Assembly (NCBI RefSeq): GCF_000003815.2
Contig: NC_049995.1
Span: forward strand, 1,268,587-1,332,586
Reading direction: 5' to 3'
From: Branchiostoma floridae
Lineage: Eukaryota > Chordata > Leptocardii > Amphioxiformes > Branchiostomatidae
Length of the DNA stretch: 64,000 bases
Shown here: positions 16,500 through 30,153 of the stretch, one piece after another
Layout: each line of letters opens with the position of its first letter
Position numbering within the stretch: the stretch's first letter is position 1
Position numbers and translations under genes: made by a program
The notes under the pieces: generated by a model
Seen by the model: the letters and a program-made list of their open reading frames with translations, nothing else
Database searches by the model: none
What the model was told of the DNA's origin: nothing

Positions 16500-16635
16500 A
16501 TGACGTGCACCCCTGGTGTATATGGCATGGCGTCTGGACGTCTGTGGTGGTTGCTATGGTTACTGACGCTCCACGCAGCTTCCAGTCAACACGTGGGCGA
16601 CAAGATGAACCTCAAGTGTGACGTCATAGAGTCAG
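16500..16635 (+). CDS. Gene 2 exon 1: signal peptide
   Basis: ATG at 16500. A second in-frame ATG at 16527 gives a better signal peptide ([20 protein letters not shown]) and may be the real start. Donor GTAAGG at 16636, phase 1. Confidence 0.8.
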
Positions 16636-19190
16636 GTAAGGTTGTTAGGGGGATATGGTATTTTGCTACGTTTTCCACTAAGCGAATCATATTTTGTAAT
16701 GTACATCGACAACTTTTGATTTAGACACATATTGGTTACCCACACACGTCTTCGTCATCAAAAGCAGTCTGGCTGTCCGCTCCGGACTGCAAACCCGTCA
16801 TGAACTGCGTTTCTGCATGGTTCAAACCCATGCCATCTGCTTACAAATGTCCGCATTTGGTACCATTGATATTGTATTATGACATCTTGAGATTTCTTTG
16901 CCAGGCATTTTACAATTTTTCCCCCGAAAACATCGTCACTTCATACACCAAAGATATGGTTTTTGTTTTCGAAAGCCACTTTTACACAATTTACAGCTAA
17001 ACAAAGTACTGAATCAAGTCATTGTGATAAATTATCTAGTCGTATGTTTTGCAAATACATCTTCGTTATAGTACAAAAATGAAGCTTTCTTTTTTTCACA
17101 CACATCAACCACACGCTCTATCTCTCTCCCTATCTCTCTCACGCACAAATACACACTTACTAACACACACACATGCATGCACGCACACACACACACACAC
17201 ACACATACATACACGCATGCACGTACAGACAGACAGACACACACACGCATTCACACAAACACGCACACACACATACACACACAAACTCACATGTATAGAT
17301 GCTTCTGACTGCTCAATTGTAAAGCATGTACAGATTACAGCTTGTACAGATTAGAGCTTCGAGCAACTGGTGTAAGAATGAGTACGTACGTAACACTGTG
17401 CTTCTTTGTTTAGTATACTTGTGCGTTTACAATGTTGGAAACAAAACATCCATATCGATAGGCTTGCATCCATCCCACAACGCCACAATGTGACTCTCGT
17501 CCTGCAGTTCCACTCTTGGGTCTCATAGAGTCCATGCGTTCTACACATGTATAGGGTATCCGCAGGTGATTCAATTTGCAGCCTCTAAACAATGGGTTCC
17601 TATACAAAAAAGAGGAGAAAGCAACTGTTAGTAACTCAACTATCTGACGTTACTGGCACACAAACATACCCTCATATGAAAGCCCGACATCTCAGCTAAC
17701 TTACCCCGTCCCCTCCGGGGGTCGACTAGGCAAGGCAAGGCAAGCTATCCGAAAAACCACATTTCGGCATGAATCTAACGGCGAGAACTTCCGGGAAACT
17801 GAAAGATTGACCCATGACCTCAAAACCGCACCACAACCCAGTGAGGAGGCCATGTGCTAGGACAAAAAAGTCCCAACTTTATACCCCCTAAAAACCACAC
17901 AAACTCAGCTTTTTGGCCCTAATCACAAAGTTGAAACCCTCCCCTGTCACACCCACCTCAAAACTGCCAGGATTTCTACCCATTTGACCAGGAAAAAAAT
18001 CATAATCGACCACCATCAATTTGCATGGCGGATTGACCTGCGGATCCCCTATAGATTTCCTCCATGCCCGTATTTGTTAGGAACGGACTGCTACAAAGTG
18101 TCCACTGGTGGTCGGGACTACCGTGGGCAGGTGCGGGTGACTGACAGTGGACTAGACTGTCAGAGGTGGAGCACACAAGAGCCACACGGACACGAAAACA
18201 CCCCTCAAATGTTCCCCAGGAAAGGATTGGACAGTAACTTCTGTCGGAATCCCTCCCCTAGCGAGTTGGATCAGTACAACAGGCCATGGTGTTACACTAC
18301 AGACCCTGGCAAACGGTGGGAGTTTTGTCCCGTCAACCCCTGCAATGGTGAGAGAATATTATGCAGCGTTTTACTAGCTAAGGATATCCCTGTACTGGTT
18401 GATTTTTTTTCCGTCATCAACAAGAAACATTGACATTTTCGGAACGTTGTTTTCAACAAATGAAGTGATTTTGTAACGGTAAGGCTAATGTTGATTAGAT
18501 CATATGGAGGATATCTGCTTGTGCATCAATTTTCGTCCGTTTCCAAATAAGTTTTCGACCATGCTATAAATCCTGTAAAGCAGTTGTAAAATGAGCAAGT
18601 ATTTGCCGTAGACACAAAAAGACATACAGTAGATATACCGGGAAAATGAATACTAATGTCATAGAACGCCAACGTCAATTACAAAGTTAACGAAGAAGAT
18701 ATCAAAGATAAGAAATTACTCTATTGTGTATTCCTGTGTTTTGTCATTTGTTAAACTTTCCTGACTATGTGCATTTCCTAGCCACTTGCGATGTGTGTGT
18801 GCGCGTGTGTGAGTGTGTGTGAGTGTAATTGTGAGTGTATCTGTGCATGTGTGTGTGTGTGTGTGTGCCTGTGTGTGCGTGTGTGCGTGCGTGTGTGTGT
18901 GAGCGTGTGTGTGCGGGTGTGCGTGCGTGTATGTGTGAGTGTGTGTGTGTGTGTGTGTGCGTGTGTGTGTGTGTGCGTAACGTGTGGAGGGATTGGCACT
19001 CGTGCTTTTTAACTGGGAACACGCCGGGAAAAGAAAACGTATGTAAGGAAAGAAAAAAATGCCGGGAAAGGAATATATGCCAGGAAGCTTGTGCTCGCTG
19101 ATGGGGCGAGTACAAGCTTCCTGGCATATATTCCTTTCCCGGTGTGAGTTTTTTTTTTTTTGTCTTTTGTGTGTGTGTGTGTGTGTGCGT

Positions 19191-19235
<45 letters not shown>

Positions 19236-21728
19236 GACATGTGTGTGTTTGTGCATGTGTGTGTTTGAGCATGTGTGAGTGTTTTTATGAGTGTGAGNNN
19301 NNNNNNNNNNNNNNNNNNNNNNNNNNNNNNNNNNNNNNNNNNNNNNNNNNNNNNNNNNNNNNNNNNNNNNNNNNNNNNNNNNNNNNNNNNNNNNNNNTTT
19401 GGGGGTGTGCGTGTGTTGTGTGTGTGCGTGTTAGGGGGCGGGGGGGGTGGGGTATCCACCGCTGACAAAGGATCTTTCAGAAATGTTGAATCGTTGTCCA
19501 GTACGTTTTTTTACTGCTGTTGTTATGGATAATTTGAAGCCATGTTGTTGATTGCAGAACTCCTGAAGCAGCAGGGCGTCTCCGCCTCAGGCCGGCTGGA
19601 GTCCCAGCTGGAGCGGCAGAACGCCACCATACAGGAGCAGCGGAGGAACCTGGAGGCACAGTGGAGGACTATCAGGTGCGCTGTTTATTGCACTATATAA
19701 GGGTGGCGGATCTGAGGTATATAATTTACGCACATGTTCATATAATGTATGCACATGCGCGCGAGATCGTGCACACCCGCACACACCCTCCCACACACAG
19801 AAAACGCGCGCGCGCGCATGCACATGCATTCTCATACATAGACTGACGCAGGAACCTGACACACACAGAAACACGACTACATAGACGGACACACAAATCA
19901 ACCCAAAAATACAGATGCTTGCACGCACATATGCACACACACACACGCGCGCGCGCGCGTGCGTGCCGATACACTGGCACACTCACGCGTAGAGACACAT
20001 CCATCCATCCATCTATCCATCCATTCATTCTGTTATTTACATGTACGCACCCCAGAGAGTTGCTGCAGGGCCGTGACAGCGGCCCAGTAGACCTGACCAT
20101 AGAGGAGTGTCAGCTGTGTACCCAGGGGGAGTGGTGTGACGTCAGCACGGCCCCGCCCACATGTATCCCCTGTTCTTCCTGTCCGAGCGGGTGAGCAGAA
20201 TATTTTGGACTTTGTTCAGGCCGATCGCGCTGCGCTCTCACTTCGTCCTAAACAATATACGTGTAACCTTTGCTTTCACACTGGGTATATCACACGAAAC
20301 GTAAAAGTGTGACTGAGATTACAACAAAACACACTGCTCTATAGAATTCCTTGAGCGATATGGTCGCAGAGAGAGCGCGGCGAGAGCGCCGTTCTAGTGA
20401 AAAGGGGGCATTAAAGTAATATTTATCTATGTACATTAGATGGCATAGGATGGCTGAGTGGTTTGTCCAACAGTCGCGAGATCGTGAGGTCACGGATGAT
20501 GGCATTTTTCGAGTTGTGATAATAGGTACTTGTCTTCAGTTGGGTAGCTAGATACTTGATAGAGAGAGATGGACTCTTCCTTACAACACAGTACAAAACA
20601 ACCCACTGCCTCTACTGTCTCCAAAATAAATTCAATAAGAATCTTATTTATTAATTTAATCTATTAAGATTAAAGGTGATGGTAGTCCCGTAGCATTTCA
20701 ATATCCTCAACCTGGCCTTTCTACGGTGTATGGAAACCGTAAAATTCACACCAAAAAAAAATTAAGAAAATGGCCATGCCATGGGAGTCAGTCCACGGTA
20801 AGGGTAATGTTTTCCCTCCGGAGGCCGACCAGCTCCTTCGGTAGCATTACTCCCTGGTATTTTTTCTCCCTATAATAGCCATCGTAGTCAGTATGGTAGA
20901 GACTATGTAGTCAGGCCGTACGGAAAGTATTTGTTATCCACTGAGTCTATATCACGGTATTGTAAAGGGGGAGCCCATTTTTCTCATTCCACCGCCTTTT
21001 ACCTCCCCATCTGAAGTCAGGTACCCGTTTTTACACCTAGGTGGAGTGAGGAAAGTCATGTAAAGTGCACGACGTCGAGGGCTTGGCGAGCATCGAACCA
21101 GCGACCTCTTGGTTCCGAGCCCAATGCTCTACCAGTTACGTTGCTCTAACGTTACCTGTGAGATTACCTTTAACATTTTTAATTTAAGGTACAAGAGCCA
21201 GGACCAGTGCTCCGGGGCCACGGACACGGTTTGTGTGGATATAGACGAGTGTGTCGCCAACAGGATGAACAACTGTGAGAAGGACCAGACCTGTGTGAAC
21301 GTACCGGGGAGCTTCTATTGCATGGGGAAGTTCATTCTGTGTGGGCCCAACCAGTTCTATAATACGGTAAGGCAGCACTTTTATATGTAAGACAGACAGT
21401 ATAGGAATCTTGCTGGACTGCGCCGAGTTGAAATTGTACTAGGATACTGCGTTTGATTTGTATTTTCCCTTGTGGCCACACTGGGGCGTTTGCTTTTAAA
21501 GCCCACACCATATCATTGGCAATCGTTGTGTACGTATGTTGTCACTAATAAATTGTGCAAAATAATGAAGTTAAATGATACAAAAATGCCTCGAAAGGAG
21601 ATAAAGGTATGATATATAATTGGCCTAACATATGTATTTATATATCTGAATAATGAGAGAGAGAGATAAAATGTAGCCAACGTAACTGAGGTACAGTGTA
21701 CTGTGTGGACCAATGGTTGAAAGTCTTG

Positions 21729-21781
<53 letters not shown>

Positions 21782-24700
21782 TCATTGACAAAAGTTGATT
21801 TCGTCAATTACTAATATATTACTCTTCGGCAAGGCAGAGAATTGACCCATTTCGAGTTCCAGCGGCCATTTTAAAAGTGCTCTCGCAAGAGTACATACTA
21901 GCGCGATTTCAAGAAAGCGAGGCCTGCGAGGAGCCTCAAGTCAGAAGGTAAAGCTCTGATATTGTGGAAATACTAAACTTTACTTAACCAACACCAAGTT
22001 ACCAACACAGATGAACTTTCATGCTAAGCTCTGATATTTGTATATTTTGTCCCTGACACGCTATGTTGTTGTTGTTGTTTGTTTGTTTCAACAGAACACG
22101 AAGAGTTGTCAGAAGTGCCGGCGGTGCATGGGGGATGGCAGCCGCACCATCGTGCCGTGTCACCTGGTCAGCGACACCCTATGCTCTCCGCCTGTTCCCA
22201 ACCTCTTCTCGGCGCTGTACCTGTCGGAGATCAGGAACAACTCCTACACCAACATCCCCGGCGGGGACAAGTTGAAACTGCGGCCCATCAGGTCATCCAA
22301 CGACTCGTACTTCAGCCGCGACCCTTCTTATCAGAACATCATCCTGGAAAAGGCGGGGTTCGCTGTGGTGGACATCAACTACGCCGTAAGAAGCTCGTGC
22401 TATATTTTCTCTCTGTAAAAACGTGTTTTTTGTTTTTTGTTTTGGTTGTTTCTTTGTATTGTTGTATGAACAAGTTTGTTCTCGCTTCCTTTTGTTCACG
22501 ATTGGCCAATGCTGCGGAAAATGGTGTTGGGCACTCTGGAAAACCATGCGATCGATGCCTATACGTTTCAGCACAGGTGGAGACTTGCAGGATGGCCCGG
22601 GGCCAAAGTTCTTACAGCAGACTTAGCCCGGGCCCCGAATTCTTCAAGAAGTTAGACAGCATTAGCGATGAACTTTAAATACTGACGAAATGAAGTGATC
22701 TACACAATCCAAAATAGTTCTCTCGGACATATATAAAGTCTTCTATTTCTTGTCATTTTCTTGTTTGTTTGCTTTTTTTAAGGTTATAATAGCAAACGGT
22801 TATAGTGCAATGTTCTTCATGGTAAGACTTTCATGCCAACGTTTTGTATGTTTATGTGTGGGCGCGCGGGTGTATTTGTGTGTGTCTAGATCTGTGTGTG
22901 TGCGGTTTAAGATATGTTGAATTTATGCAGTTTCCACAACCATACTTATTGCTGTATACGAGCATCGTACATGTACATATTACATTTTAAGCAAAATATA
23001 TAAGGCCTTTTGGGGGTAACAGGATGAGATGACTATATGTTCTCTTACTCGTTCTACCATTAGTTGAGGCACACATGTGCCAACTACATGCAGCTGAGTG
23101 TAGACTGGGACGGCGTGGCCGAGGCCGGCACCCGGCTGAAGCAGACGGTGGGCCGGTACTACCAGAGCTCTACTGTCAGCACGGCCATGGCGGTCACTCC
23201 GGGGGAGACTCTCGGTGTGGAGATCCGCAGCAACAACCGAGAATGTTTCCCGCCGGGTGACAGGGCGCCCACACAGCTGAAGGAGGTACACAGTATCCAT
23301 GTCATGTCATGTATTTTGGGTCTGCCATGATGGGAGGGGGGGGGGGGGCACTTAACTTATACAGGCGGCGTCAATGAGGTAGTAGAGCATAGTATTCATT
23401 CGCGCCCCCTGGTCCATGGCGCAGAATGGAAAGTAGTACCAAGAAAATTCATAAGGCAGGGTGAAAAAATCTACGTGAGAGACAGCCAGTTACTTGCACA
23501 ACGGATTAACACACAATTCTGTTAATTGCATGGAATCCCCAAATCCCAAACCGGAGCGGTCCAGCTAAATAACTTGGCATTATTGCAACAGCCGGATAAT
23601 TGCACGAAATTTACTGGCTAATGGGCCGTGGAATTCAGTGGCTTTAACTGTACAAACATCGCGCACTATAGGTTCAAACATGTCATGGCAGTTGTTGTAT
23701 GGTCGCTCAGCGATGGCAGTATAGTCGGAAGAGGTTTGATCACAGCGCCCCAAGCCACGGGTATGAATATAACACTCTTGCAACCTGTTTTGATTATTCA
23801 GGTTGCGGACGTGGAGAGGTCCGGCCCTTTCAGCATTCTCTGGCTCTCCCACAAGACTGGTGCCGCACTGCTGAAGGCCTCCATGCAACAGGCAACCTAC
23901 GAGGGCTCCTGGCGGGTAGACTTTGAACTGCAGTCAATATCAGATCCATACATGTTGCAACTGAAATCTTCAAATTTCATCAGGTATTTCTGAACAAATT
24001 TTAATCTTTTGTTCTTCATGCAAAAGCGGCACCTAGCTTTAGCAGTGATTATTGCTCTAAGACAGACGGCATTACCTACACAAGAACTTATAATACTGCT
24101 ATTTGTGTAAAGGTTGGTCAGGATGATGATGCTTTTCGCATACGTTGCGCTCGTCGATGAGGCGTTTAAGCAAACTTTCTTTTTTCTACTTTTTTTAAAA
24201 TCTTATCAGCCCATATAAAATAACAAGATATGTTCCTAGTACTCTTTTGATAAAAACAGTCGATTGATGGTATAAGTTGCATTTGCGCGATTACTTAAAT
24301 TTTTTCACCTTCAGAAATGTCCTTCATTTTCGCAAAAAAATGTGGCCTTTCTAGTTTCCCTTGCAACGGCAATAACAGTAAGCTTCGTCTGTGTCTTAAT
24401 GTTTGATTCGCTTTATTTTATTGATTTGATTGTTTGTTTGTTTGTTTGTTTGTTTTTCCCAGTTTTCGCCGGGAAGGAAACGTGCGGTTTTCCTTCCATC
24501 AGGCTATGTACCTGCAAGGCTTAGCGTGCTCCGGGCCGGAGGGTGTGGTCATGGTGCCCAAACTACTGCGCAGGGGCGGCGGAACAGTCAAGGTGGGTAA
24601 ATAAGTTGTAGTTGTATAAGTGGTGTTTGAATCACATACTGTAAATGCATTTAAGTTCACGGAGACTTAATTTTGCGGTAGCAGGAAAATGAACTTTTAG

Positions 24701-27700
24701 CGGTGGTTTTAATTTCGTGGTAGCACCGTGCGCTGTAGTCTCTTACTGCCATGGAAAAATGTTCACGGTGGTTTTAAATTCGTGGTGAAGCGGCCGCTGT
24801 GAAAACCGCGAACATTAAACAATTGCGAAAGTTTCTGCATTTACAGTTCGTCGTAGAGTGAAATTTGTTATCACCAAGCACAGTAGGGTTATCTTCTCTG
24901 GATACTTCTAAAGAACGCTTGCAGACAGTACAAAAAGTTAGGTGTGATGGGTCGTTCAATTTAATATAACCAGCTGCTGTCGAAGAGGTGTGTTACGACG
25001 AAGGGCAGTTATACCCGCCCGGCTATATATTTTAGATACAGATACAGAATCTATTACAAATCATTTTCTTCCTCTTTGCAAAAAATCTTTATGCTTGGAT
25101 ACATTGCTAGAAATAATCCAACTTTTCATAGGGACTGTTTCAGTTTCCAGTGCAATTTAATTATCATATGGTTACGTTCTGTGTTTGTAAAATCCATAGT
25201 TGAAGAGTTTTATTTTGAGCTTTGTTCCAACACAACGAAAATACTCCCAATGAATTTTCAGTCGATCTCACCAACATCTGTGTTCACGTTTTACTGCGCT
25301 GACATTTCGGAAGTCGGAAGTGTATTGACGTCAGGGGTGAATCAAAAATTGACGAGATCGACCAAAAATTCATGGAATTGTTTTCGTTGTCTTGAAACAA
25401 AACTCAAACTTTACAGCGTGGTATGATTGTAACGTTATACGTCTAAACCAAAGTATCTTCCTAGAAACGTCGATGAAGGTTAGACAACTGCTTTTGGCAT
25501 ATTTTCCTAGAATTGTTGTATTAGTCGTAACTGTAAAATGAGAGTAAATACAGATAACTGTTATAGTTTTCTCCCAGTTACTACATTGAATTACAACATT
25601 ACTATCTAATTATGAGATTACTCATAACCAGTATTTTTGTTCTCGTTTCTCTTGTTCTGCTAAAATAGCTGTTGCAGCACATGAACGTCGGAGTCAACAT
25701 GCAGTACATGACGCTGGTGACAGGGGCCGCTGTTCCCGTCCAGGCTGGTGACCGACTGTTTATGGAAATCGAGAGCGCACGTGACTGCACCATGTACTTC
25801 CTCGGGTCGGATTTAGGTAAGAAAGCGAAGCATTACACAGTACAAGTGACCACTATGGGTCGATGCCTCTGTACGATTGACTCAAAATCTAGGTAGAAAT
25901 GACTGTAAATTGTACTCTACTTCGCTCTTGTTATTTTCCTCGACCGGTAAGCCGCAAAACGCGTGAATGACTGACCATATAATCTGTTCATTTGTCAATA
26001 GGTCCAACATCCGGAGCACTGAATCTGCTTTTGCACCCCTACTGGCCACCGCCACCATAGATAACCACTTTGTTCTCTAAATATTTCACCGTCCTAAAAA
26101 CTTCTACCTGGAAGCTATGTGACTCCACTGAGCACCCCCCCCCCCCCCAAAAAAAAGTCTAGGGTCGGCAGGTTTTTGTGGGTAGTTATAGGGAAACAGG
26201 AAACACAACATTTTTTCCTAAGCTTAGAGCTTTCTTTTGTCTTAGAGCTGTGATCTTCCTGGAGATGGTAGGCTGATTTATATTGATTTAGGGGGTACAG
26301 TTTGTTTGCCACCTTGCTATCTCGTCCATCTCCAGGAATCGGCGGGTTGAACGTGCTTTGGCTGCCCCACCAGAAGTCTGCTGTCCTGATGGGCGAGCTG
26401 TACAACAACGGACAGCTGGAGGGGGTGGCTCAGAGACAGGTGCTGCGCTTCACCGAGAAGAACAACACCGACCCCACCGTGCTCAAACTCAACAAGAACG
26501 GCAGAGTCACGTGAGTGTTGCCTAGCGACGTTCATTAGGTTTGATTAATTCGGTCTAACTTACGGTGGACTCTCACTGCACTTGTGGCTTTGGCTAGAAC
26601 CGTCTCTCTGATAGAACCATAGCCCCGTGTTTGAGGAAAACCATATATCGAGCACGTTAAATAGTGTCCTTCCCTGTGTGAGTTGTTTAAAACCTACAGT
26701 CCTGTGGCCGCATATGGTACGGGCCGCAATTAATGTCGTATGAGGTCACCTGATTTAGCGCGAAATGTCAGACGCTCCAGACCCTTGAGATTTTGCCCCT
26801 CCTATTGTAAGTTCCTCGCAATTCAGCCCCTGGCTGCGATGAGAGAGTAGTAGGTCACCCAATAAGATTTTATTTGATACATATACCAATATTAAGGTAC
26901 ATGAATAAATCACATTAGCTCCTCCATTTAACGTCCTATCTGAGGGCGGCCCTTACCGAAGCTAGGTACTCATTTTCACCTGAAAAGTGAAATAAAGTGA
27001 AGTGAGGAAAGTCGTGTAAAGTGCCTTTCCCTAAGCGAACCCGTTACCTCTGGGGTCTAGGTCAAACTCCTAACTGATTGAGCTACTAGATAAAGAAGAA
27101 AAGCATTTCTATTGTATGTATTCCTCCCCAGGTTTTTGAAGCCAGGACGAGTGAACGTGAACTACCATCAGAACATCATCCACTCGTGTGACTACGCCAG
27201 CATCACAGCGTACTATCACGGCCTGGCTATATCGGACCCCGTCCCCTTCATGCAGCAGGTACGGACTTACAGACTCCCAACATGTCAACACTAAGCGACG
27301 ATTTTTCCACATTTTATTCACAAGTCATAAATTACAGAACATTCACAAATATTCTCCTACTCATTTGTATCACCATTTAACATACGACTAAATAGACACA
27401 ACTTTAACCCTATCCAGGCTCATTCGGCCCGCCTTCGTATTTTCAAAACGGCTAATTGTACAATCACTAAATTTGCCGAAGGCTAATAGCAAGTACATGG
27501 TAGAAACATACTAGTAAGAAAGATACGTGTGACAATGAACACTGATCAGTAAGCATCATTCCCAACACATGCACATCTAAACATGCTCTCGCGAGAGTAC
27601 AGCGTGACGAGAATGCACGTGAGCTCGCACGAAAGCGAGGACCGGGAAAGTTGATGTTTGTTTCAGATAGTCTTTACCCAGGGTGGCCTGCATGGATCAT

Positions 27701-27941
27701 GCAGATCTAACTATACTGTTTATTACGTTCCGTCGTAGTCGTATCACAACATCCTTTGTATATATTTCCACAGGTCCTTGGTAACACTAACGCGAAAGCG
27801 GAAGGCATCTACCTTAGCGGGTCGTACGACGTGGAGGAAGGTTCCCAGATCTACCTACAGATGACCTGCAAACGGGGCAGGATCAACGGGGTGGGGGAGG
27901 GGCACTTCAGCACGCTGTCTGTACTCTGGATCATGCCGTAG
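16500..27941 (+). CDS. Gene 2: secreted kringle / TNFR-EGF / triple TNF-C1q-like protein, 758 aa
   Basis: Thirteen exons (16500-16635, 18081-18347, 19558-19675, 20056-20190, 21189-21366, 22095-22385, 23064-23285, 23802-23983, 24463-24592, 25669-25816, 26336-26510, 27132-27258, 27774-27941) join in one frame: 2277 nt, all GT-AG, all phases matching. Order: signal peptide; kringle (about 47-131); coiled coil (135-174); TNFR-type repeat, calcium-binding EGF, TNFR-type repeat (about 175-318); three jelly-roll domains (about 322-490, 491-640, 641-758). Each jelly-roll has an aromatic/GXV strand, one Cys after it, a 'GD/GE.L..EI' strand, a second Cys and a closing FS.LW.. strand, as in TNF/C1q folds. 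The repeats align with each other ([21 protein letters not shown]). Function is unknown; an extracellular cytokine-like or pattern-recognition role is inference. An alternative end is at 26002-26060. Confidence 0.85.
17096..17295 (+). repeat. CA-rich microsatellite, gene 2 intron 1
   Basis: Interrupted CA/CT repeats with a short ACAG run. ORFs on both strands here are artefacts. Confidence 0.9.
18081..18347 (+). CDS. Gene 2 exon 2: kringle domain
   Basis: Acceptor GTTAG at 18080, donor GTGAGA at 18348, phase 1-1. A complete kringle with six Cys: [42 protein letters not shown] and [10 protein letters not shown]. All hallmark motifs are present, so the fold call is firm. No lysine-binding test is possible here. 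Confidence 0.95.
18792..18978 (+). repeat. GT-rich microsatellite, gene 2 intron 2
   Basis: Interrupted GT/GC dinucleotides. Confidence 0.9.
19062..19142. repeat. 37-bp-arm hairpin (foldback element)
   Basis: Arms 19062-19098 and 19106-19142 are reverse complements with one mismatch around a 7-base loop. The motif CCGGGAAAGGAATATATGCC belongs to a family with another copy at 56278-56360. It sits between two GT arrays in gene 2 intron 2. Confidence 0.85.
19168..19440 (+). repeat. GT-rich microsatellite containing an assembly gap
   Basis: GT repeats on both sides of a block of 100 N. Confidence 0.9.
19298..19397. other. Assembly gap, 100 N
   Basis: Exactly 100 N inside the GT array, so a default-size gap of unknown true length. 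Confidence 0.99.
19558..19675 (+). CDS. Gene 2 exon 3: coiled-coil linker
   Basis: Acceptor TTGCAG at 19557, donor GTGCGC at 19676. Charged helical sequence ([19 protein letters not shown]) with heptad-like hydrophobics and one N-glycosylation sequon (NAT). Probably an oligomerisation stalk, as in many C1q/TNF-like proteins. Confidence 0.8.
19738..20010 (+). repeat. CA/CG-rich low-complexity, gene 2 intron 3
   Basis: CA and CG dinucleotide runs, including two CGCGCG stretches (about 19806, 19947), and a CCAT run near 20000. Such alternating purine-pyrimidine DNA can form Z-DNA. Confidence 0.85.
20056..20190 (+). CDS. Gene 2 exon 4: start of TNFR-like Cys-rich region
   Basis: Acceptor CCCAG at 20055, donor GTGAGC at 20191, phase 2-2. 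Encodes [25 protein letters not shown]; the last part begins a TNFR-type repeat completed in exon 5. Confidence 0.8.
20221..20408. mobile_element. MITE copy 2 (CCCCCTTTCCACTAG family)
   Basis: Shares the interior CTTTCACACTGGGTATATCA and right end CTAGTGAAAAGGGGG with 6326-6564. The left terminus is eroded. In gene 2 intron 4. Confidence 0.7.
20930..21150 (-). mobile_element. tRNA-derived SINE, minus strand
   Basis: On the - strand a tRNA-like head (21150 to about 21075) shows A-box-like AACTGGTAGAGCA and B-box GGTTCGATGC. It continues into CTTTACATGACTTTCCTCACTCCACC, the SINE body. The downstream part differs from copies A and B, suggesting a second body type. Confidence 0.65.
21189..21366 (+). 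CDS. Gene 2 exon 5: TNFR repeat end plus cbEGF
   Basis: Acceptor TTTAAG at 21188, donor GTAAGG at 21367. Encodes [15 protein letters not shown] (end of TNFR-type repeat 1), then a calcium-binding [24 protein letters not shown]. It ends with NQFYNT, which leads into the next TNFR-type repeat. Confidence 0.85.
21728..21779 (+). repeat. (TA)n microsatellite
   Basis: About 26 TA units in gene 2 intron 5. Confidence 0.95.
22095..22385 (+). CDS. Gene 2 exon 6: TNFR repeat 2 and start of jelly-roll 1
   Basis: Acceptor CAACAG at 22094, donor GTAAGA at 22386, phase 0-0. First [14 protein letters not shown]...CHLVSDTLC (TNFR repeat), then the start of the first TNF/C1q-like domain ([14 protein letters not shown]), with sequons NNS and NDS. 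Confidence 0.85.
23064..23285 (+). CDS. Gene 2 exon 7: jelly-roll 1 core
   Basis: Acceptor CATTAG at 23063, donor GTACAC at 23286, phase 0-0. [18 protein letters not shown], then [19 protein letters not shown] and RECF. The two Cys match those in jelly-rolls 2 and 3. Confidence 0.85.
23480..23610. repeat. Dispersed repeat (copy 1 of 2)
   Basis: Shares AGTTA.TTGCACAACGGAT, GGTCCAGCT.AATAACTT and CGGATAATTGCACGAAA in order with 45340-45470. Non-coding; class not determined. Confidence 0.6.
23802..23983 (+). CDS. Gene 2 exon 8: end of jelly-roll 1, start of 2
   Basis: Acceptor ATTCAG at 23801, donor GTATTT at 23984, phase 0-2. [15 protein letters not shown] closes domain 1. [19 protein letters not shown] opens domain 2 and aligns with the same place in exon 11. 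Confidence 0.85.
24424..24457 (+). repeat. (TTTG)n tract in the exon 9 acceptor region
   Basis: TTTG units just upstream of the CCCAG acceptor at 24462; acts as the polypyrimidine-like tract. Confidence 0.8.
24463..24592 (+). CDS. Gene 2 exon 9: jelly-roll 2
   Basis: Acceptor CCCAG at 24462, donor GTGGGT at 24593, phase 2-0. [26 protein letters not shown]. It aligns with exon 12 ([13 protein letters not shown]). This frame is not an ORF from ATG and is easily missed. Confidence 0.85.
24638..24847. mobile_element. MITE with ACTGTAAATGCA terminal inverted repeats
   Basis: Starts ACTGTAAATGCA and ends TGCATTTACAGT. The 210-bp interior has GTTCACGG/GGTGGTTTTAA repeats. In gene 2 intron 9; non-coding. 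Confidence 0.8.
25669..25816 (+). CDS. Gene 2 exon 10: jelly-roll 2
   Basis: Acceptor AAATAG at 25668, donor GTAAGA at 25817, phase 0-1. [34 protein letters not shown]: the GD-L-EI strand and second Cys. Confidence 0.85.
26002..26060 (+). CDS. Gene 2 alternative 3'-terminal exon (candidate)
   Basis: Acceptor TCAATAG ends at 26001. Exon 10's phase-1 G plus GT opens [19 protein letters not shown], then TAG. This aligns with the start of exon 11 ([12 protein letters not shown]), so it is a second version of the closing beta strand with its own stop. It would give a 621-aa isoform with two jelly-rolls. No clear AATAAA follows. Confidence 0.5.
26336..26510 (+). CDS. Gene 2 exon 11: end of jelly-roll 2, start of 3
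   Basis: Acceptor CTCCAG at 26335, donor GTGAGT at 26511, phase 1-2. [20 protein letters not shown] closes domain 2; [20 protein letters not shown] opens domain 3. Confidence 0.85.
26607..26880 (+). mobile_element. SINE copy, plus strand (3' part)
   Basis: Shares CCCCGTGTTTGAGGA, GTCGTATGAGGTCACCTGA, CTCGCAATTCAGCCCCTGG and the tail TAGGTCACCCAATAA with copy B. In gene 2 intron 11. Confidence 0.65.
26930..27095 (-). mobile_element. SINE, minus strand, with tRNA-like head
   Basis: On the - strand: TAGCTCAATCAGTTAGG (A-box region), GGTAACGGGTTCGCT (B-box region), then GAAAGGCACTTTACACGACT, CAGGTGAAAATGAGTACC and AGGGCCGCCCTCAGATAGGAC. It faces the SINE at 26607-26880. Confidence 0.65.
27132..27258 (+). 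CDS. Gene 2 exon 12: jelly-roll 3
   Basis: Acceptor CCCAG at 27131, donor GTACGG at 27259, phase 2-0. [19 protein letters not shown], then [12 protein letters not shown]. Confidence 0.85.
27774..27941 (+). CDS. Gene 2 exon 13: end of jelly-roll 3
   Basis: Acceptor CCACAG at 27773; stop TAG at 27939-27941. [18 protein letters not shown], then [12 protein letters not shown] as the closing strand at the very C-terminus, as in TNF and C1q proteins. Confidence 0.9.
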   Translation, partial: VLGNTNAKAEGIYLSGSYDVEEGSQIYLQMTCKRGRINGVGEGHFSTLSVLWIMP

Positions 27942-28001: not shown

Positions 28002-28599
28002 ATGAAGAACGAAGACCACTTTTATACCAAACCGTTTTGTGAAGTTTGTGTAATTTCATGTGGAATATCATTCAGTTCAGTTCATCCTCAGAGAGGTAAC
28101 ACCAGCGTCTCCGCATGTTTCTGTCCAGCATGGTTGAACGGAGCTCGAATATAAATATGAATAGAGAAAGGCACTACTAAAGAACTAATGTGTGGACAAA
28201 GAAGTCAAAAGATATATTTGAAGAATTTTTTCGAACATACATTTTTGTTACGTTAAAAGGCTACAATGTTATTTGGCTATTGTTGCCTGTCTTGTAAAGT
28301 GTACGTAGATTTTATTTAAGACATTTAAGGCTCTGTGTTTTCAAAAATATATTAACCATTTGCAACAATCTTGAATCGCAATGTAAGGTGACAAAAAAAC
28401 GAGACGCAAAAGAAAGGACATATTGCTCTTTTAAACTGAATGATGTTTTTCCCATGCTCCTTGAAAATATATCAGTTTTGTCCCTCTGTGTTTCTTGGTA
28501 AAATCTTAATAATTTTTTAAAAACTGGTTTCACACAATGTATTCCTTACATTTACATGGTGAAATTCCTTTAGCTTTTATCATTTTGGCTCAAGGCATG

Positions 28600-29985
28600 C
28601 AGGGAGACAGGCAGATAGGGAGACAGTAGACAGGAATGCAGCAGGCAGGTAGGCTGACAAACGGGGAGACCGACAGGGAGGCAAACAGATGACAGAAAGA
28701 CAGACAGGGAGGCAGACAGATAGGGAGACAGACGGGGAGGCTAACATACAGAGAGACAGACATGGAGGCAGAGAGACAGGGGGACAGACAGACAGGTAGA
28801 CAGACGGGGAGGCAAAAATACAGAGAGGCAGACAGGGAGGCAGAGAGACAGGGGGCAGACAGACAGGGAGACAGACACACAGGGAGACAGACACACAGGG
28901 AGACAGACAGGCAGACAGACGGGGGCAAACAGATAGGGAGGTAGGCAGATAGACAGGGAGGCAGACAAACATAAAGACCTACAGAGAGACAGCCAGACAG
29001 GGAGACAGACAGACAGGGAACCAGACAGGGAGGCAGACAGACAGGGAGTCAGGAAGGCGGGAAGACAGGGAGACAGACTTCGAGGTAGACAGGGAGGGAG
29101 ACAGGCAGACAGGGAGCCACACAAACAAGCAGGCAGCTGGCCAGACAGACAGACAGGGAGGCAGACAGACGGGGAGATAGACAGACATGTAGTCAGACTG
29201 ACAGGGAGCAAGACAGACAGAGAGACAGGGAGGCAAACATACAGGCAGGGTGCGGCAAGACAGGAAAGTGACAGACTGGGAGGCTGACAGACATGGAGGC
29301 AGACAGACAGGGAAACAGATACACATTGAGGCAGCAGGCAGGGAGGCAGACAGACAGGTCGACAGACAAAGGTAGACAGACAGAGAGGCAGCAGACAGGG
29401 AGGCAGACAGGCAGGAAGCTTGAAGGAGACAGACAGGGATTTACCAGACAGACAGGCAGACCGATAAACAGGATAGCAAGAAATACGGGTGACAGACTTG
29501 GAGGCAGACAGACAGGGAGGCAGACAGACAGGGAGTGAGACAGGCAGGAGCTTGAAGCAGACAGGCAGCGATTCACCAGACAGGGAGGCCAACGGACAGG
29601 AAGGCAGACCGACAGAAAGAGATACAAACAAGGAGCAGGACAGACAGGAGGCAGGCAGACAGGTAGACAGACAGATGGACAAACAGGGAGGTAGACAGGG
29701 AGGCAGAGAGGTAGACAGACGTTGAGGCAGACAGGAAGGGAGTCTAAAGCAGACAGACAATGATTTAGACAGACAGATAGACAGACAGACAGGGAGCATG
29801 ACAGACAGGGAGCCAGACAGACAGGTAGGAAGACAGACAGGCACTACAGACTGACAGAGAGATTGGGGGCAGACAGTAATGGAGGCAGACAGACAAGGAG
29901 CTAAACAGACAGGGAGGCAGACAGACAGGGAGACAGACAGAGAGACAGGGAGGCAAACAGACAGGCGGGCAGACAGACAGCAAAC
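28600..29985 (+). repeat. CAGACAGGGAGG-type minisatellite
   Basis: About 1.4 kb of degenerate units of 12-16 bp (GGCAGACAGACAGGGA). Few stops occur on the - strand, hence an apparent 433-codon ORF of S/V/C/L/P only; that ORF is an artefact. Confidence 0.95.
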
Positions 29986-29989
29986 CCAC

Positions 29990-30153
29990 AGACCATAATC
30001 AGGTGCGACCTGAGCCAAGACTACATCGAAGGAGGAACGCACACTACAGTCCCTCCAGACATCCTGCCGACTTCACTAGTACCAGACATCACCATTCAGG
30101 ATCCTATACAACAAACACTGAACTTGGTTAATGAAAGAAACTTGCACAGGTAA
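29990..30153 (+). pseudogene. LINE-type ORF fragment
   Basis: A short frame encodes DYIEGGTHTTVPPDILPTSL then VPDITI...TLNLV, ending in a stop after AGG. The pattern resembles the C-terminal part of some non-LTR retrotransposon polyproteins (VPPDI...PDI...LVELTVPFE). Weak, short match from memory of the family, with no flanking domain. Confidence 0.35.

Follow-up and report, generated by a model that had tools for sequence, protein, structure and literature searches.

A lancelet gene that joins a kringle and TNF-receptor-type repeats to a predicted single-chain TNF/C1q-type head

The gene and its exons

The window considered here, a 64,000-nucleotide stretch of contig NC_049995.1 of the lancelet Branchiostoma floridae, carries on its + strand, at 16500-27941, a gene that joins a kringle and repeats of the TNF receptor (TNFR) type to three further domains (D1, D2 and D3) that are predicted to form a single-chain head. 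The gene comprises 13 exons, all with GT-AG borders, and its open frame encodes 758 residues followed by a stop codon (Table 1). The original prediction had described these 13 exons as closing in matched phases, and this model is upheld by the proteins of two other lancelets: 706 of the 758 aligned residues are identical in P0002 of B. lanceolatum and 696 in P0003 of B. belcheri, both of which are gene models, as is the 13-exon protein itself. The two proteins, 92-93% identical to that of the window, share its order of modules (kringle, helix, TNFR, EGF, TNFR, three C-terminal domains), so that the architecture, which was to be sought in other lancelets, is indeed found there. D1-D3, the first TNFR repeat and the EGF module are the best conserved parts (94-99% identity); the least conserved are the kringle (78-84%) and the N-terminal 46 residues (72-74%).

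An extra 39-nt in-frame exon in intron 6 (22783-22821) was considered and rejected, as its residues do not occur in the proteins of B. lanceolatum and B. belcheri. The segment has AG and GT borders and keeps the frame, and may be a small exon that is used alternatively in B. floridae.

Table 1. Exons of the kringle gene (window positions) and the protein parts that they encode
Exon	Position	Strand	Encoded part
Exon 1	16500..16635	+	Probable signal peptide, then a short N-terminal stretch with LKCDVIESG at its end; phase-1 donor
Exon 2	18081..18347	+	Kringle, residues 46-134, encoded by this exon alone; both borders in phase 1; PF00051 (E 2.9e-22), plasminogen/HGF kringles in the PDB
Exon 3	19558..19675	+	Residues 135-173, short predicted helix, perhaps a coiled coil
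Exon 4	20056..20190	+	End of helix; start of first TNFR-type repeat (from about 20108); Pfam TNFR_c6
Exon 5	21189..21366	+	End of first TNFR repeat; calcium-binding EGF type (about 21238-21324); second TNFR repeat from about 21340; TNFR_c6, sub-threshold EGF_CA
Exon 6	22095..22385	+	End of second TNFR repeat (to about 22184); start of jelly-roll D1
Exon 7	23064..23285	+	Jelly-roll D1; Cys380 and Cys436, one conserved pair
Exon 8	23802..23983	+	End of D1 (to about 23849); start of jelly-roll D2
Exon 9	24463..24592	+	Jelly-roll D2 (Cys532)
Exon 10	25669..25816	+	Jelly-roll D2 (Cys593)
Exon 11	26336..26510	+	End of D2 (to about 26367); start of jelly-roll D3
Exon 12	27132..27258	+	Jelly-roll D3 (Cys680)
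Exon 13	27774..27941	+	End of jelly-roll D3 (Cys735); stop codon

Modules of the N-terminal half and the single chain

In the search with Pfam hidden Markov models (HMM), for which the query still carried the 13 residues of the rejected exon, the kringle reached 79.2 bits against a cut-off of 34.3, which places the protein among the kringle proteins, and TNFR_c6 matched two stretches (E 3.5e-9, 37.4 bits against a cut-off of 29.4). Both modules had been recognized in the original prediction. The calcium-binding EGF module, which had been called clear there, is of the type proposed, but its EGF_CA score of 20.7 bits lies under the cut-off of 27.

Whether the receptor-like and the ligand-like parts belong to one polypeptide can be judged from two observations. 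Within exon 6, the second TNFR repeat ends and the first jelly-roll begins, and two paralogs in the same genome run through the TNFR, EGF, TNFR and D1-D3 region in one frame, namely, L009 (580 aa; TNFR_c6 28.9 bits, just under the cut-off of 29.4) and L010 (658 aa; TNFR_c6 above the cut-off). Hence, these parts form one chain, as had been proposed, and are not two joined genes. The TNFR, EGF and three-jelly-roll part is intronless in both paralogs (1474-3213 in L009, 1231-3204 in L010), unlike in the many-exon window gene, and both may derive from retrocopies.

At the N-terminus, a signal peptide is likely, considering its position, the hydrophobic run and the helix at residues 10-30 in the AlphaFold2 (AF2) model of P0002; the N-terminal hydropathy maximum of 1.03, as against 1.06 elsewhere in the protein, does not single it out. 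No membrane anchor or transmembrane segment was seen in the hydropathy scan, and the protein is probably secreted. The same AF2 model contains a helix at residues 147-181 that corresponds to exon 3, and the exon 3 helix aligns with a helix region, rich in Gln, in the fish protein described next.

A family shared with fishes and birds

A search started from the C-terminus of the window protein returned at least four matches, three lancelet entries and a single fish protein, nell3 of Betta splendens. From the latter, in turn, at least 338 proteins were reached at E up to 0.01; among the 120 matches listed, the named ones belong to ray-finned fishes and birds and often carry the label nell3. When the part from the TNFR repeats to the C-terminus served as the query of a profile search, the matches were the three lancelet entries and 13 proteins with EGF-type domains that covered 6-17% of the query; the Betta protein was not recovered, though it had been used in the profile. 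In the alignment of the family, all 50 rows match TNFR_c6 and 48 match EGF_CA (E up to 1).

The vertebrate proteins, known as nell3, NELL family member 3 or si:ch211-37e10.2 and uncharacterised, have the same order of TNFR-EGF-TNFR and three domains at about 29-33% identity, a helix region before the TNFR repeats and, in the one fish protein folded, a predicted single-chain trimer. They differ from the lancelet protein in that no kringle occurs in the rows scanned, and in their N-terminal short CxGxxC-like motifs and longer Gln-rich helix region. The lancelet protein shows what is common to the family: behind TNFR-EGF-TNFR come three homologous domains, each of which contains one Cys pair. Moreover, in four of four vertebrate species, the best score of each lancelet jelly-roll is with its same-numbered counterpart; the triple head, therefore, most likely predates the split between lancelets and vertebrates. 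Thus, as far as can be judged from sequence, the body made of receptor-type repeats and jelly-rolls is not specific to lancelets and represents an uncharacterised family common to lancelets, fishes and birds. The claim that the combination of modules is novel, accordingly, did not stand for this body; it stood for the kringle, which is present in 2 of the 50 aligned rows, both from lancelets (P0001, the third lancelet row, is without it).

As to the name, NELL1 and NELL2 are defined by laminin-G/thrombospondin N and von Willebrand C domains. Pfam listed neither in the window protein or in P0004, so that the label nell3 looks misleading; the likeness to NELL1/NELL2 consists in this database label and in the EGF modules that those proteins have.

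The B. floridae genome contains further members of the family at C146:193143, C18:10397934, C18:2662885, C11:9520480-9523850 and C18:10404020-10409117, with matches 26-53% identical. Since L010 outscores P0002 against the canary protein (343 and 298 bits, respectively, by BLAST), no one-to-one orthology with vertebrate nell3 is claimed. An unrooted tree of 18 rows with long branches, which leaves out the L023 paralog and includes L013 as a partial sequence, places the C146 and C11 paralogs beside the kringle gene and those on C18 beside the vertebrates, and is not relied on here. In addition, partial copies of the gene, with exon matches 61-93% identical in protein, lie elsewhere on its chromosome (C17:1222146, C17:1146469 and C17:394310) and on small contigs (C208:56019-59129 and C175:9298), and represent either recent partial duplications or alternative haplotypes.

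The C-terminal head

The structure predictions for two relatives of the window protein, P0002 and one fish protein, both show three TNF/C1q-type jelly-rolls packed as a trimer. The models were obtained without templates and for query species that differ; their alignments overlap in many rows, so that the two are not fully independent. The three C-terminal domains are, accordingly, predicted to be TNF/C1q-type jelly-rolls that are arranged about one shared axis and form a pseudo-trimer within a single chain. The three jelly-rolls had been suspected in the original prediction and gain support from both models and from the fold search; the natural single-chain trimer now predicted had not been foreseen.

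In the fold search, the lists were filled by matches to D2 and to the whole head and have no bearing on the folds of the kringle and TNFR parts. D2 comes nearest to CD40L, EDA, APRIL and BAFF. The same predicted arrangement of three jelly-rolls is seen in the engineered single-chain trimers APRIL-BAFF-BAFF (4zch), C1q head (5hkj, 5hzf) and adiponectin (4dou), at 10-12% identity; in these, chains that are normally separate were linked in the laboratory, whereas the lancelet linkage is natural. In BFVD, the alignments to A0A6J5LW36, a phage protein that bears the name C1q domain-containing, and to several giant-virus proteins are about as long as a whole three-domain head, a hint that viruses, too, have triple C1q-like heads on a single chain.

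The repeat nature of the head is also apparent from the sequences. The C-terminal region contains six cysteines, two per domain, in the pairs Cys380/Cys436, Cys532/Cys593 and Cys680/Cys735, and all six columns are invariant in the 50 aligned rows (which were hand-picked from the proteins found). Profile comparison of the internal repeats related D1 to D2 with E 6.3e-7 (probability 92%), D1 to D3 with E 7.7e-6 (84%) and D2 to D3 with E 0.0012 (20%).

Several observations weigh against this interpretation. The C-terminal 450 residues match no Pfam family, and neither sequence nor profile search of the C-terminus against solved structures produced a credible relative. No TNF or C1q match reached the curated Pfam cut-off: the TNF family PF00229 has no match in the window protein, its best match is at E 0.0037 in one of five trimmed members, and the best score among the relatives is 12.2 bits, against a cut-off of 23, in the full-length sturgeon protein; the C1q domain is not listed by the Pfam scans of the window protein or its relatives. 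In plain alignments of the lancelet domains, the observed score was reached by 12 of 500 shuffles for D1-D2, 62 of 500 for D1-D3 and 0 of 500 for D2-D3, the corresponding counts for the canary protein being 2, 0 and 7 of 500. The TNFR-EGF-TNFR part, when its sequence was searched against solved structures, found EGF proteins only. Its model confidence (predicted local distance difference test, pLDDT) is 53-77 in the lancelet model and 50-81 in the fish model, and residues 24-147 of the lancelet model, kringle included, remain below 50; because of these low values, the models do not fix the position of the kringle and TNFR-EGF-TNFR relative to the head. Finally, the trimer arrangement is a prediction, and secretion, the coiled coil and oligomerisation are all features that we infer.

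Possible function of the protein

Taken together, the data make it quite probable that the gene encodes a secreted recognition protein of the uncharacterised nell3-labelled family, with a predicted single-chain pseudo-trimer head and a kringle that was gained in lancelets (see below). In this protein, the helix before the TNFR repeats would drive oligomerisation, TNFR-EGF-TNFR would serve as a stalk or a second binding arm, partners would bind in the three inter-domain grooves, as they do in TNF and C1q heads, and the kringle would contribute an added binding site. Since D1, D2 and D3 differ, the three grooves would not be equivalent. The C1q head, which is made of three unlike chains, is the better functional analogy, compared with the homotrimeric TNF, and a C1q-like or matricellular binding role appears somewhat favored. 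Tentatively, one might go further and envisage a hetero-pseudo-trimer of TNF/C1q type, common to lancelets and vertebrates and fused to its own receptor repeats, that engages three partners or its own TNFR arm, with the lancelet kringle possibly providing a tie to proteases or the matrix.

It is rather unlikely, by comparison, that the protein is a TNF-type cytokine, the single-chain head of which clusters TNF receptors and signals like a soluble TNF ligand. The jelly-roll and the predicted trimer-type packing are those of the TNF ligand superfamily; the lancelet protein differs from its members in staying below the Pfam cut-off, in carrying three unequal domains per chain and TNFR repeats upstream, and in having no membrane anchor by hydropathy. 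With the TNF receptor superfamily it shares the repeats but not the transmembrane segment, which soluble decoys also lack.

Less probable still is that the jelly-rolls are real and their intramolecular trimer an artefact of prediction, so that domains of different chains pair instead. Training of AF2 on TNF and C1q trimers may favor a known packing, and in CTRP4 oligomerisation proceeds through the second of two C1q domains, the first being mainly monomeric (PMC9952994). Against this stand the presence of exactly three domains in the chain and the recurrence of the arrangement in the two template-free models of different query species, their overlapping alignments notwithstanding. Several C1q-type domains in one chain are known also from the bivalve proteins HcC1qDC5, HcC1qDC6 and CfC1qDC-2, each with three (PMC5519582, PMC10672478); the accessible portions of the reports on these and on CTRP4 describe no TNFR repeats, kringle or single-chain trimer structure.

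The presence of receptor-type and ligand-type modules in one chain had led to the idea of a self-inhibited ligand, the TNFR-type repeats of which cap the head grooves until released. Such a mechanism seems improbable: the TNFR-EGF-TNFR part has low model confidence, its single cysteine-rich domains (CRDs) flank an EGF module, unlike the CRD arrays by which TNF receptors bind their ligands, and no furin-type site was found in the protein. Both self-inhibition and cytokine activity are possibilities that spring from the module names alone.

The kringle and its origin

Turning to the kringle of the proposed recognition protein, it can be aligned to plasminogen kringles, in which the lysine site includes an acidic pair, D-x-D, before PWCY. 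The loop that bears this pair comprises 10-12 residues, as against 5-6 in plasminogen kringles, and differs across the three lancelets, the alignment being gapped there. Lysine binding by the lancelet kringle is therefore doubtful, and the binding site that the kringle would add is probably of another kind than the lysine site of plasminogen.

No kringle was found at E<0.01 by tblastn in the 14 loci examined, including about 10 kb upstream of four paralogs. In the L010 paralog, an exon that ends in a similar motif, LQCDV, has a phase-1 donor, and the next recognizable coding stretch, the helix, starts in frame after about 0.98 kb, within which three-frame translation reveals no kringle (the splice itself being deduced). 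The phase 1-1 kringle exon of the window gene occupies the place of this kringle-free phase-1 intron, and elsewhere in the genome at least 150 kringle matches, listed without internal stops, exceed the cut-off. Exon shuffling is, hence, the simplest account: most likely, the lancelet lineage acquired the kringle when a phase 1-1 exon was inserted into a phase-1 intron that was already there. Loss of the kringle in the other members of the family is a possible alternative. Among the matches listed, the one that scores best after this kringle itself shows 57% identity to it, and a shorter one 62%.

It is very improbable that the kringle exon was wrongly joined to this gene and is part of another, as the abundance of kringle exons in the genome and the kringle-free P0001 (Hypp8165, an older B. 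lanceolatum model that also lacks the signal) might suggest, given that the phases match on both sides, that the models of the two other lancelet species place the kringle identically at 78-84% identity, and that the start of P0001 looks misbuilt, with the helix exon read in another frame. The missing signal and kringle of P0001 are probably an annotation error in the database entry.

The intron after the kringle exon contains at 19049-19155 a hairpin with 50-nt arms that are 86% complementary and separated by 7 nt. It lies near a gap of N (19298-19397) and looks like a small mobile element.

Surroundings of the gene

Two open frames on the + strand flank the gene. The one at 3511-4029 matches F5/8 type C/galactose-binding domains (PF22633, 5.4e-20; PF00754, 1.6e-11), and the one at 42605-43183 matches PF00754 with 24.3 bits, below the cut-off; thus, lectin-like genes may lie on both sides of the kringle gene. 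Directly after it, at about 28570-30070, a long low-complexity stretch with open frames on both strands has the appearance of a simple-repeat artefact and not of a gene.

Implications

For B. floridae, 24 TNF ligand genes (PMC7674686) and 50 C1q-domain genes (PMC5519582) have been counted, in each case as quoted there from an earlier paper. In the literature searched, no paper on nell3 or its naming variants, including LOC109479568, was found. The listed titles and abstract openings of work on amphioxus kringles or TNF receptors, on amphioxus TNF/C1q, and on tandem, three-domain or single-chain TNF/C1q proteins contain nothing on this gene, and the accessible part of a study of domain shuffling (PMC11788884) makes no mention of it. 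No published account was found of a TNF/C1q pseudo-trimer that is naturally single-chain and joined to TNFR repeats, subscription papers and preprints being outside the search.

The heads of TNF and C1q are normally trimers of separate chains, which engineers have linked into one. In the family described here, such a linkage of a TNF/C1q-type head appears to have evolved naturally and to have been retained in lancelets, fishes and birds. With all three grooves on a single chain, each can be tuned independently by evolution, and the lancelet gene offers, in addition, an apparently clean case of insertion of a kringle exon into a phase-1 intron. Correction of the nell3 label would steer researchers to the right fold.

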